Source: Patescibacteria group bacterium AH-259-L05 (GTDB lineage Bacteria; Patescibacteriota; Patescibacteriia; UBA2591; UBA6264). From it: a DNA stretch of 57,841 bases. Shown piece after piece: positions 14,342 through 55,771 of the stretch. The stretch spans positions 1 to 57,841 of the forward strand of contig JALLOO010000005.1 in NCBI GenBank assembly GCA_027717985.1, in the 5' to 3' direction. Position numbers and translations under genes: made by a program. The notes beneath the pieces are model-generated. The model was not told the DNA's origin. It saw only the letters and a list, made by a program, of their open reading frames with translations, and made no database searches. The number at the start of each line of letters is the position of its first letter. Within the stretch, counting starts at the first letter, position 1.

Positions 14342-15556
14342 CTATGTTTTGCCTTGGGGAGAGGCCGCAAAGTCAAAATCAATTAAATAAATACGGGGCT
14401 TTCTTCTAAGATCAGCCCTGCCGTCTTCATCTCTAAAGAATCTCAGGACGAAATTAGCATCATGCGTATGACCATGAGAAATTCCTTGACTATCTAAAAC
14501 CTTAAGAATTTTTTCTCTATCAGACGCTAACTTTTCCTCAAACCATCCAAAATTTATCGACCACTTATTTAAATTTAAGTCCAAAACGCCGCTATAAACG
14601 TCAACAAAGCCTTCTTTATTTAGCTTGTATGACTGTATTGGCTCTATTGGAACATAATCAAAGCCATTACTTTTCCATAATTGGTAATTTTCATACAGTT
14701 CCTGCCACGCTAAGAAAGCTCTTGGTTTTATGTGCCTAATTATCGTTTTTTCTTTTAAAGACCCTCCTACAAGCGTTGTCTCCGAGCCGCTTTTTTCAAA
14801 TTCCTGCCTTGAAAATCTTTCTTCACTAATGTCTTTCTCTTTATACAATGGAGATTCTATTAATATATTATTTAGCCCTTTTTTCATGAATAGCTTAATA
14901 AGGGACCTTTTTTCTCTTTCTGGCATATCCCAAATAATTTCAGCGCACGCTTTTTGAACTTCAACATTATCACTGGCAAGCCCTTTTGCAATAAGTGAGG
15001 ATTGTTCATTTTTGGGAGCACCCCAAATCATATCAGCACACGCTTTTTGAACCTTGATATCATCACTGGCAAGGCCTTTTGCAATAATCTTAGATACCAT
15101 TTTTCTAAGTGAGGGTCGTTCATTTATAGGAACATCCCAAATAACTTCAGCATAAGCGTTTTGCACGTCAACATTACCACTCTCAAGGCCTTTTGCAATA
15201 AGTGAGGATCGTTCGCTCACAGGAGCATCCTTAATCATTCTAGCACACTCTTTTCGAACATCTATGTTGTCACTGGCAAGGCCTTTTGCAATAAGTGAGG
15301 ATCGTTCATTTGCAGGAGCGTCCGATATCTTTACTTCTAAAGGATCCTGGATCATTCCCTTGATCATTTCATCCTGTTCCTTATCTTTTATATACCTTGC
15401 CAAAGAATGTGATGTGATCCTGTCTTGACCGGAAATTTCATACATTTCAAGCGGTATCTTTTGCCTGCTTTCCAACGAAATGCCTGATTTTTCCATGCTT
15501 CTCTTTGGCTCTAAGCCGCCACTTTTATCTAAACTATATTTTATTTCTTTGTTCAT
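14342..15556 (-). CDS. HEAT-like repeats fused to a kinase-like (APH fold) domain
   Basis: 404 aa in two parts. Residues about 75-225 contain four or five copies of a roughly 31-residue alpha-helical repeat (SSLIAKGLASDNxxVQKACA), resembling HEAT repeats. The C-terminal part carries SHGHTHDANFVLRFF (His361-Asn368) and IYLIDFDFA (392-396), matching the catalytic loop HGDxHxxN and the metal-binding DxD of aminoglycoside-phosphotransferase-like kinases. The usual Asp after HG is His here. The N-lobe is short. No signal peptide. Substrate unknown; a small-molecule or protein kinase, or a pseudokinase, are all possible. Confidence 0.7.
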   Translation of the reverse strand: MNKEIKYSLDKSGGLEPKRSMEKSGISLESRQKIPLEMYEISGQDRITSHSLARYIKDKEQDEMIKGMIQDPLEVKISDAPANERSSLIAKGLASDNIDVRKECARMIKDAPVSERSSLIAKGLESGNVDVQNAYAEVIWDVPINERPSLRKMVSKIIAKGLASDDIKVQKACADMIWGAPKNEQSSLIAKGLASDNVEVQKACAEIIWDMPEREKRSLIKLFMKKGLNNILIESPLYKEKDISEERFSRQEFEKSGSETTLVGGSLKEKTIIRHIKPRAFLAWQELYENYQLWKSNGFDYVPIEPIQSYKLNKEGFVDVYSGVLDLNLNKWSINFGWFEEKLASDREKILKVLDSQGISHGHTHDANFVLRFFRDEDGRADLRRKPRIYLIDFDFAASPQGKT

Positions 15557-16274: not shown

Positions 16275-16298
16275 TTAAGGTAAGATCATTGACATTCA

Positions 16299-16354
16299 CC
16301 TTGTTAAATGCCGCAAAGCGGCAATTTCGCTGAAAGCGAAATTATTTAACAGGG
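16299..16354 (+). promoter_or_regulatory. Three-way-junction leader RNA
   Basis: In the 5' leader of the HAD gene, CCTTGTTAAAT (16299-16309) pairs with ATTTAACAGGG (16344-16354; 11 bp, one G-U). Enclosed are GCCGC-AAA-GCGGC and AATTTCGCT-GAA-AGCGAAATT. The three stems follow each other with no unpaired base. The ribosome binding site AAGGAGG starts 6 nt downstream. Confidence 0.8.
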
Positions 16355-16371
16355 TAAACAAGGAGGAAAAC

Positions 16372-17013
16372 ATGCACAAAACCGTTATTTTTGACTGGAA
16401 TGGGACCCTGCTTAATGACACAAAAATCTGGTGGGATTCAATAATGGAAATATTCCGCGTATCTAACGCCACGCCGCCAACCGTAGAAGAGTATTTTACC
16501 GAGCTTGATAGTGATGGTAGTTTTCACAACATTTACCAATCTCGAGGAATTACTGCAAGCCTTGACAAACTCAATGAGATCTACGAGGCATACTATAGCG
16601 CCCATATGTATGAAACTAAACTTTACCCTACAGCCCGCGCCACACTTGAACTACTTGAACAAAACAAAACAATGCTCGGACTTATGACTGCACAAAAAAG
16701 CAACCTGGTTCTTCCTTTACTTGAAACCTTTGATATTGTAGAATTTTTCTCTACAATGCACTTTCATATATTTAAAAAACCACAAGTTATCACTGAAATT
16801 GTTGACCAACACAACCTTGATCCTCAAACATGCTTTTATATTGGCGACACCCCTTCTGACATAAAACATGCAAAAAAAGCAGGTATTAATGCAATTGCAT
16901 TTTTAAACGGATTTGTCCCTGAAAATCTGGTTCTCAAACAAAAACCAGACTTTAACGTGAAAGTGTTACAACATGCTGCTGAACTTGTTAATGCATACAA
17001 GGAGAAAAAATAA
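16372..17013 (+). CDS. HAD superfamily hydrolase
   Basis: 213 aa. Motif I is VIFDWNGTLLND with nucleophile Asp8 and Asn10 at the usual second Asp position. Motif II is in LGLMTAQ, the Lys of motif III in FKKPQV, and motif IV is FYIGDTPSDIKHAKKAG. The helical cap between motifs I and II places it in the phosphoglycolate-phosphatase-like subgroup. It probably dephosphorylates a small metabolite. ATG follows AAGGAGGAAAAC. The stop overlaps the next start (TAATG), so the two genes are translationally coupled. Confidence 0.87.
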   Translation: MHKTVIFDWNGTLLNDTKIWWDSIMEIFRVSNATPPTVEEYFTELDSDGSFHNIYQSRGITASLDKLNEIYEAYYSAHMYETKLYPTARATLELLEQNKTMLGLMTAQKSNLVLPLLETFDIVEFFSTMHFHIFKKPQVITEIVDQHNLDPQTCFYIGDTPSDIKHAKKAGINAIAFLNGFVPENLVLKQKPDFNVKVLQHAAELVNAYKEKK

Positions 17014-19355: not shown

Positions 19356-19432
19356 CCTCGGGATGACACCCCTTTTCTTGTCATCCCGCGATTTGCGCGG
19401 GATGACAAGAAGGAGTCGCGGCATGACAAGGG
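19356..19432. repeat. Palindromic repeat family B (GGGATGACA type)
   Basis: Inverted repeat TTGTCATCCCGCG/CGCGGGATGACAA at 19379-19407, flanked by partial copies (GGGATGACA, GGCATGACAA). Related units lie at 20521, 36015, 50335, 53440, 54264 and 57593. Confidence 0.85.
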
Positions 19433-20507: not shown

Positions 20508-20520
20508 ACTTTTTGTCATT

Positions 20521-20568
20521 CCGTCCCTTTTTTGTCATTCCGCGATCCGCGCGGGAATGACAAAGGGG
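20521..20568. repeat. Palindromic repeat family B
   Basis: TTGTCATTCCGCG and CGCGGGAATGACAA form an inverted repeat between two glycosyltransferase genes; one arm provides an alternative ATG for the downstream gene. Confidence 0.85.
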
Positions 20569-36014: not shown

Positions 36015-36165
36015 TTTTTGTCATCCCGCACAATTCCCCTGTCACCCCGCACTCACAAAGTGAGTGCGGGGTGACAAAAAGGAGTTGAGTGCGGGATGAC
36101 AGGGGGGTTAACGCGGAGTGCGGGATGCGGGATGACAAAGGGGGGTCTGCGGGATGACAGGGATT
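36015..36165. repeat. Cluster of palindromic repeat family B units
   Basis: This 340-bp gene-free stretch (35938-36276) contains several overlapping TGTCATCCCGC / GTGCGGGATGACA units in both orientations, separated by short G-runs. It looks like serial insertion of one repeat into another. The largest perfect arm pair is CACCCCGCACTCAC/GTGAGTGCGGGGTG. The -35 box of the next gene follows directly. Confidence 0.85.
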
Positions 36166-50311: not shown

Positions 50312-50334
50312 GAGTTCGCCCCCCGTCCCTTTTG

Positions 50335-50416
50335 TCATCCCACATCCTTTGTCACCCCCTCTTTCATTCCGTGCAGGGCGCGGAATGACAAAAAGGGCAT
50401 GCGGGATGACAAGGAG
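50335..50416. repeat. Palindromic repeat family B
   Basis: Units TTTGTCATCCC, TTTGTCACCCC, CATTCCGTGC/GCGCGGAATGACAAA and GCGGGATGACAA in a 263-bp gene-free stretch (50245-50506). Confidence 0.85.
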
Positions 50417-53656: not shown

Positions 53657-55771
53657 ATGAAACTATTAATAGTAGAGTCACCAACGAAATCAAAAACTTT
53701 AGCCCAATACCTTGGAGATGATTTTGAAGTTGTGTCATGTAACGGCCATATCAGGGATTTGCCCAAAAGCAAAATGGGTATTGATATTGAGCATGATTTT
53801 AAGCCTCAGTATGTCATCCCCACAAAAAAACGTAAAACTGTTACCAATCTTAAAAAAATAGCTGCCAAAGCAAAGACTGTCATTCTGGCCGTAGATGAAG
53901 ATCGAGAGGGCGAGGCAATTGCATGGCATCTTGAACAAATTCTAGAATCTGTAAACAATCCACAATTTCAACGGATTGCGTTTCATGAGATAACTAAAGA
54001 AGCAATTCAAAACGCACTTAAAAATCCGCGCGATATTGACATGAATCTCGTCAATGCACAGCAGGCCAGACGTATTCTTGATCGCTTAGTTGGATATGAA
54101 CTTTCTCCGCTTTTGTGGAAAAAACTAGTTAAAGGACTTTCAGCTGGCCGGGTGCAATCCCCTGCGGTTCGGTTAATTGTAGAACGAGAACGGGAAATCA
54201 AAAAATTTAAACCAGAAGAATACTGGAGCATTGAAGCAGAGCTTGAACAACAAACCCCTCTCTTGTCATCCCGCACCCCATCCACTGTCATCCCGCACGG
54301 AGTGCGGGATGACAAAGGGGATGTGCGGGATGACAAAGGGGTTTTTACTGTCAGGCTTAGCAAAATAGATGATAAAACACTTAAAAAATTAGATATTAAA
54401 AATAAAGAACAGGCAGATGAAATTGTTAAAAATTTAGAAAAAACTGAATATACCGTTACTGATATTAGAAAAAAGCAAACTATGAAAAATCCGTTTCCCC
54501 CCTATACCACCTCAACCCTGCAGCAAGCAGCAAGTAGAGTCCTAAACTTTTCTGCTAGACAAACCATGTTTATTGCCCAACAACTATATGAAACAGGATT
54601 GATTAGTTATCCACGGACTGATTCATTGAATCTTGCCAGTGCTTTTATCAATCAAGCACAACAATTTATCACGAATGAATATGGGAATAGATATACATAT
54701 CCACGCCACTTTAAAACCAAATCAAAATTGGCTCAAGAGGCTCACGAAGCCATTCGGCCAACCTCTGCTATAAATTCACCAGAAAAAGTGGAAAAAGGAC
54801 TTGAAAAAAAATTTTTAAAACTGTATGAACTAATTTGGCGCCAAGCCGTAGCTTCACAAATGAACCCGGCAAAAATAGATAAAACATCTGTTGATATTAG
54901 TGCAAACAACTATATGCTGCGCGCCACTGGTTCAGTAATAAAATTTGACGGCTGGCTCAAACTTTACCCCCAAAAACTCGGTGAAAAAATACTTCCTGAA
55001 TTATCAATTAATGAAATACTTAATTGTATACAAATAATACCTGCACAACACTTTACTGAACCGCCGCCGCGCTACAGCGAAGCACGACTGGTTAAAACAT
55101 TAGAAGAATATGGTATTGGCAGACCTTCTACGTATGCACCTATTATCTCAACCATACTTTCGCGAAACTATGTGATAAAAGAAGGGGGACGATTTAAACC
55201 CACTGAGATGGGGATGCGCGTAAATGATCTGCTTACCAAACATTTTCCAAACATTGTTGATTACAAATTTACGGCAAAAATGGAAGATAGACTTGATGCG
55301 ATTGCACAGGGGGAAAAAGATCAGAAAACCGTCCTTTCAAATTTTTATAAACCGTTTAAACAAACACTTATGCAAAAAGAAGAACAAATTGAAAAACAAT
55401 TTAAAGATGAAAAAACTGACAAAACCTGTCCCCAGTGCGGCAAAGACCTTGTTATTAAAATGGGGCGATTTGGGAAGTTTCTAGCGTGTACTGGATTTCC
55501 TGATTGCAGATATACTAAAAGCTTAGAGCAAAAATCATCTGATCAGCCCAATGATAAAACCGGGGTGAAATGTCCGCAATGTAAAGAGGGAGAATTTATT
55601 AAAAAAAGAACCAGAAAAGGCAAATTCTTTTATGGCTGTTCCATCTTTCCAAAGTGTAAAAATGCACTGTGGTATGAACCTACCGGCGATACATGTGAAA
55701 AATGCGGGTCATTACTAGTCAAGTTTGGCAAAGATGAAAAAATAAAATGCTCAAACAAAGAATGTAAGTAA
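53657..55771 (+). CDS. topA: DNA topoisomerase I with in-frame repeat insertion
   Basis: 704 aa, type IA. TOPRIM domain: LLIVESPTKSKTLAQYLG and AVDEDREGEAIAWH (about 79-91). Active-site Tyr318 lies in GLISYPRTDS. Further conserved blocks are HEAIRPTSA and GIGRPSTYAPIISTIL. Three C-terminal zinc ribbons follow (CPQCGKDLVIK, CPQCKEGEFIK, CEKCGSLLVK). Residues about 200-229 are encoded by a family B palindrome (54264-54335) that replaces a surface loop with SSRTPSTVIPHGVRDDKG-like peptide. It relaxes negative supercoils. Confidence 0.96.
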   Translation: MKLLIVESPTKSKTLAQYLGDDFEVVSCNGHIRDLPKSKMGIDIEHDFKPQYVIPTKKRKTVTNLKKIAAKAKTVILAVDEDREGEAIAWHLEQILESVNNPQFQRIAFHEITKEAIQNALKNPRDIDMNLVNAQQARRILDRLVGYELSPLLWKKLVKGLSAGRVQSPAVRLIVEREREIKKFKPEEYWSIEAELEQQTPLLSSRTPSTVIPHGVRDDKGDVRDDKGVFTVRLSKIDDKTLKKLDIKNKEQADEIVKNLEKTEYTVTDIRKKQTMKNPFPPYTTSTLQQAASRVLNFSARQTMFIAQQLYETGLISYPRTDSLNLASAFINQAQQFITNEYGNRYTYPRHFKTKSKLAQEAHEAIRPTSAINSPEKVEKGLEKKFLKLYELIWRQAVASQMNPAKIDKTSVDISANNYMLRATGSVIKFDGWLKLYPQKLGEKILPELSINEILNCIQIIPAQHFTEPPPRYSEARLVKTLEEYGIGRPSTYAPIISTILSRNYVIKEGGRFKPTEMGMRVNDLLTKHFPNIVDYKFTAKMEDRLDAIAQGEKDQKTVLSNFYKPFKQTLMQKEEQIEKQFKDEKTDKTCPQCGKDLVIKMGRFGKFLACTGFPDCRYTKSLEQKSSDQPNDKTGVKCPQCKEGEFIKKRTRKGKFFYGCSIFPKCKNALWYEPTGDTCEKCGSLLVKFGKDEKIKCSNKECK
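54264..54335. repeat. Palindromic repeat family B inside topA
   Basis: TGTCATCCCGCAC at 54264 and 54286, and GTGCGGGATGACA at 54302 and 54323, form two nested inverted repeats in frame. Confidence 0.95.

Follow-up and report, generated by a model that had tools for sequence, protein, structure and literature searches.

A palindromic repeat of Patescibacteria and Omnitrophota, often in frame within essential protein genes and bounded by the same ends as a GIY-YIG nuclease unit

What is a perfectly folded palindrome doing immediately upstream of the ribosome-binding site of a gene for a HAD hydrolase? The question arises in a 57,841-nt stretch of DNA from Patescibacteria group bacterium AH-259-L05 ('the window', in what follows), for which a preliminary description noted a three-way junction with stems of 11, 5 and 9 bp and proposed a cis-regulatory RNA, a sensor for the HAD substrate or a folded mobile repeat. 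Folding reproduces the structure. Segment 16299–16354 folds at –26.2 kcal/mol, its minimum-energy and centroid structures are the same, and its stems of 11, 5 and 9 bp meet in a perfect three-way junction with no unpaired base and two triloops; shuffled versions average –10.2 kcal/mol (z = –5.84), and none of 200 is as stable. The outer stem is 12 bp, however, not 11, because A16298 and T16355 form an additional pair, and the unit (16298–16355) is 58 nt. Sequence conservation of the repeat runs past the stem to TTCA…TAAA (16295–16358). The placement, too, was described correctly: AAGGAGG lies directly 3' of the structure, and the gene that follows does encode a HAD-IA hydrolase. The parts are these:

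16295–16358 (+): whole repeat with conserved flanking tetranucleotides (TTCA…TAAA), 64 nt, 90.7 bits with model R1
16298–16309 (+): left terminal inverted repeat ACCTTGTTAAAT, the 5' side of the outer stem, from fold and covariation
16310–16322 (+): hairpin 1, 5 bp with triloop AAA (GCCGC-AAA-GCGGC), two-sided changes in 4 of 5 pairs
16323–16343 (+): hairpin 2, 9 bp with triloop GAA (AATTTCGCT-GAA-AGCGAAATT), two-sided changes in 6 of 9 pairs
16344–16355 (+): right terminal inverted repeat ATTTAACAGGGT, the 3' side of the outer stem, from fold and covariation
16360–16366 (+): AAGGAGG ribosome-binding site of the HAD gene, outside the repeat and present too in the sister species that has no repeat
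16372–17013 (+): HAD-IA family hydrolase gene, 213 aa, ATG at 16372, host of the insertion in its 5' UTR

A protein search of 26 genomes of the order finds four HAD homologues: the gene itself, that of a sister species, G001 (74% identity), and two distant ones (47% and 29%). The 5' UTR of the G001 gene, the only close orthologue, is colinear with the window leader (…ATACGTAATACTTAAGGTGAGATCATTGAAAATATACAAGGAGGAAAAAATG), and the element is absent from it; by hand count, and assuming no other indel, the two leaders differ by a net 59 nt. Thus the window copy either inserted into an existing leader or has been cleanly lost from G001, and in both cases the HAD gene does not require it. The element matches no Rfam family at curated or relaxed thresholds. 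The one match in the window at gathering score is a tRNA elsewhere, and the relaxed scan yielded a single chance-level match, outside the element.

Copies of the element are scattered, some next to unrelated genes and some within them, in either orientation. Within the host genome (1.03 Mb in 63 contigs, 77.5% complete) a second copy, 82–84% identical, lies at C11:3681-3748, opposite in direction to the next gene, and its hairpin 1 shows a compensatory change. Further copies, again in both orientations, are present in other genomes of the order. Scanned with a covariance model built from 21 copies, 31 of 286 sampled genomes of the class carry the family, with up to 16 hits per genome—hits outnumber places because some places match on both strands. 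The exact right-end pattern is found in 71 stretches of named genomes, belonging to Sungiibacteriota, Moran-, Nealson-, Staskawicz-, Buchanan-, Jorgensen- and Gribaldobacteria and others among the Patescibacteria, and also to several Omnitrophota, and the full 64-nt model matches at those loci as well. Presence is patchy, even between sister species. The ends, TTYACCC(T/C)GTTAAAT, are inverted and enclose two hairpins. In a second subfamily the length is still 58 nt, but the interior is split 17 + 17 where the window copy has 13 + 21; here, too, the loops are triloops and no base at the junction is unpaired. We considered, and set aside, an integron attC site: judged by eye, the order GTTAAAT…ATTTAAC is the reverse of that of attC R boxes.

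In the 21-copy alignment 91.8% of cells are paired, against 35–44% when partners are slid by 1–3 columns, a control that preserves the relatedness of the copies but is biased towards the structure, which was drawn from these very sequences. Changes on both sides are seen in 11 pairs; two-sided cells number 37, against 14.4 in shuffles, and the covariation score is 0.244, against 0.159 ± 0.010, a value reached by none of 500 shuffles, although relatedness among the copies inflates these shuffle statistics. Covariation this strong implies that the fold is maintained, as part of the repeat. The compensatory changes that were to reveal a regulatory leader therefore exist, but among dispersed copies and not among the leaders of one gene. 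That the window feature is one copy of a dispersed, mobile palindromic repeat is well supported.

Many copies lie inside long open reading frames, in frame, and 60 of 84 lie outside them. The frame is free of stops, is readable on either strand, and yields the peptide Y/H-P-V-K-S…K-L-F-N-R-V. Hosts named by Pfam are POR gamma, UvrC, a glycosyltransferase, a Mur ligase (MurE-like), TP_methylase (RsmI-like), TsaE, a radical SAM protein, a methyltransferase, PseudoU_synth_2 (RluD-like) and SHMT. The pattern recurs in a second set of copies, from named genomes, in genes that we take, from sequence motifs, to be KsgA (KsgA-like), ValRS, AtpG, uracil-DNA glycosylase and GalT. All 24 in-ORF copies of the first set, a number that includes orthologous copies and the window copy, have lengths of 1 modulo 3, against 34 of the 60 others; this contrast is partly circular because out-of-frame copies terminate the reading frame, but alignments with orthologues are not. 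Where orthologues permit measurement, net gains are exactly 60 or 54 nt. PriA, identified by its sequence motifs, has two insertions in two species, each of 20 residues relative to orthologues and one of them in the zinc-binding loop, and RsmI with the 58-nt, end-to-end version has exactly 18 extra codons; gains of 20 and 18 codons mean that the net gain is the total length minus 4. In PriA the old copies keep the frame although much of their pairing is gone. A transposase does not lie between the two PriA copies found 1.1 kb apart: a single PriA reading frame contains both.

Four genomes (G001, G010, G240 and G265) have the element in TsaE, in the loop flanked by SPTF and DAYR. The AlphaFold model of the G001 protein has a mean pLDDT of 88 and a confident core; the blocks that contain the insert score 51–69 and lie between two strands, where the insert is predicted, at low confidence, to form a loop. 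This loop is a hot spot. Elsewhere it holds other extra in-frame sequence, some of it palindromic (L110, L113, L116, L119, L121 and L125), and in the window's own genome it holds GGCCGAATCAAGTTCGGCC.

In three genomes (G006, G018 and G015) the same terminal repeats enclose one open reading frame, for a single-domain GIY-YIG nuclease, and in G093 a remnant of 122 bp contains the beginning of such a frame. The protein is about 85 aa long and the units about 280–295 bp; the nearest solved structures are two of UPF0213 type, with weak scores. In a class-wide protein search the homologues nearest to this nuclease (at least 62% identity, in alignments that reach the C terminus) come from 12 genomes, and in all 12 they have the terminal repeats on both sides, about 280–295 bp apart; in most of the 12 the stop codon falls within the right repeat. 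Several end variants—CCCTGTTAAAT, CCCCGTTAAAT, CCCTGTGAAAT, CCCCCTGAAAT and CCCTGGTAA—have both arms changed together. More distant homologues do not have these ends, but in four of their genomes (G218, G003, G188 and G023) inverted repeats of another kind stand about 280–310 bp apart. Short copies accompany the unit in 10 of the 12 genomes (2 × 2 table 10/2/21/253, Fisher p = 3e-9, genome ancestry ignored). Some genomes have 17 to 21 GIY-YIG matches; several with short copies, the window's own included, have only a UvrC-like match, or none.

Two further arrangements may be recorded here. GIY-YIG units end directly before start codons in L307, L308 and L290, and the genes that follow resemble, as read from sequence, pyruvate kinase (G094, G184) and ftsZ (L290). 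At L216 1388-1778 (G024:C124), another GIY-YIG gene, of GFTKKY type, is flanked by GTCATTGCGAGGAG repeats in inverted orientation, 368 bp from each other, a hint that the association of GIY-YIG genes with palindromic repeats may be a wider one.

Perfect direct 4-mer repeats flank 13 of 84 copies, against 3.1 expected; inverted 4-mer matching of the flanks does not rise above shuffles. From the net gains and these direct repeats a 4-bp target duplication is likely, though most copies have none to be seen. The best explanation of the whole, and one that we hold with considerable confidence, is that the repeat is a MITE-like, protein-coding miniature palindromic element mobilized in trans, presumably by the GIY-YIG nuclease. 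The GIY-YIG unit would be the autonomous element, its nuclease opening the target and recognizing the DNA by its fold or its terminal repeats, and the short 58-nt form would be a non-autonomous derivative mobilized in trans. Insertion would leave a 4-bp duplication and hence a net gain of the total length minus 4, and the one stop-free frame on each strand (Y/H-P-V-K…L-F-N-R-V) would join both ends whenever the length is 1 modulo 3. Insertions into coding sequence would survive because, with such a frame, a tolerant loop acquires a near-neutral peptide of about 16–22 residues. The copy in the window, within a 5' UTR, is most probably selfish and neutral.

Might the palindrome serve its host instead? 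As a regulator of the HAD operon, whether a cis-acting RNA or a riboswitch that senses a ligand, it would be well placed, directly upstream of the ribosome site, and its fold is very stable and covaries. But the element is not kept in front of orthologues of the gene, since the single close one has this leader and no element in it; copies occur by and inside unrelated genes in either orientation, and no Rfam family matches. The sister leader and the scattered copies rule out a leader RNA, to which we give hardly any credence; of the three original proposals the mobile repeat stands, and the cis-regulatory RNA and the ligand sensor fall. A more general host role, such as a hairpin that stops transcription or stabilizes mRNA, or a protein-binding site, selected at many intergenic places, would suit the many copies that keep the fold and the 60 of 84 that are not within long reading frames. 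It accords poorly with the window stem, which has no T run 3' of it, with copies in the middle of genes and in frame, with absences between sister species, and with the old PriA copies, whose frame has outlasted much of their pairing, and we think it improbable.

The alternative with more to be said for it accepts a mobile palindrome and changes the mover: another enzyme, a Y1/REP-type or DDE transposase for example, would act on the element, and the GIY-YIG reading frame could be a mere passenger between the ends. Four genomes (G024, G240, G164 and G025) are rich in short copies and have few or no standalone GIY-YIG matches, and the likely 4-bp duplication is compatible with a DDE transposase, too. 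If the nuclease is the mover, short-copy genomes of this kind would require past activity, incompleteness or transfer from neighbours. Against a passenger stands the presence of the GIY-YIG frame between these ends in all 12 of the closest-homologue genomes, its own end usually inside the right repeat; moreover, at the places examined no transposase gene lies between the repeat ends. We regard another mover as possible but somewhat unlikely, and we keep the GIY-YIG nuclease as the candidate.

Protein-coding palindromes were first described in 2000, in Rickettsia. The Rickettsia palindromic elements (RPEs; Ogata et al. 2000 and 2002, reviewed in PMC10969869) are about 150 bp long and form ten families, and that review names no mover for them. 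Like RPEs, the elements described here are short palindromes that lie in frame in unrelated, often essential, genes, where they add a conserved peptide, and that also lie outside genes. Compared with RPEs by description, they differ in size (58–64 nt against about 150 bp), in their three-way junction with triloops, in their hosts, Patescibacteria and Omnitrophota, and in sharing ends with a GIY-YIG unit. The lifestyle is matched, then; size, structure and phylum differ, and a candidate mover is added.

MITEs (general account, PMC10969869; ORF-bearing examples, PMC2759123 and PMC5896051) are likewise small and dispersed in many copies, with terminal inverted repeats and ends common to a larger ORF-bearing unit. 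Here, however, that unit codes for a GIY-YIG nuclease and no recognized transposase, and the interior consists of two hairpins of constrained total length. Dispersed palindromes tied to a small enzyme gene also recall REP/BIME sequences and the super-families of Y1 (RAYT) transposases (PMC3733652), from which these elements differ in the class of enzyme and in their frequent coding insertions; by inspection, the aligned copies have no GTAG or CGTC tag at the foot of a hairpin. The GIY-YIG insertions reported from rRNA genes of CPR bacteria (PMC11270868), which are not introns and do not resemble homing elements, share with the present unit the GIY-YIG frames, the bacterial radiation and the non-homing behaviour, and this unit might explain them. 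In open-licence literature on GIY-YIG together with MITEs or palindromes, or on palindromic elements of Patescibacteria, we found no earlier description of the element.

An RPE-like lifestyle is now apparent in ultra-small bacteria, in genes for replication, translation and tRNA/rRNA modification, and since the gene of the candidate mover lies between the same ends, the mechanism is directly testable. The element may account for the many GIY-YIG genes in these genomes, and it carries a caution: a CPR protein with an extra in-frame peptide can owe it to selfish DNA. Whether units of about 280–295 bp, with terminal inverted repeats and a GIY-YIG protein of about 85 aa, together with 58-nt derivatives moved in trans, constitute a new class of transposable element that adds in-frame peptides to essential proteins across Patescibacteria and Omnitrophota is a broader claim, for and against which the chances seem to us evenly divided. 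Were it true, the GIY-YIG clades akin to this one whose terminal repeats differ (G218, G003, G188 and G023) would make the system a general one.

The window holds other features besides. Segment 16146–16232 (+), absent from the colinear G001 leader, resembles a gene for a small RNA that ends in a terminator: a TATAAT reminiscent of a promoter closely precedes it, its fold is stable (z = –2.6), and T5 comes after a GC-rich hairpin. It occurs once in the genome and has no Rfam match. A second palindromic family, TGTCATCCCGC…GCGGGATGACA, has about 20 half-sites in intergenic clusters, at the following positions:

19358–19428: second-palindrome cluster
20514–20562: second-palindrome cluster
36019–36159: second-palindrome cluster
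50333–50411: second-palindrome cluster
54264–54335: second-palindrome cluster

Finally, 14899–15387 (–), within a reading frame of 404 aa (14342–15556), contains internal direct repeats of 189 nt that are 76% identical, with units such as ERSSLIAKGLASDNIDVRKECARMIKDAP.
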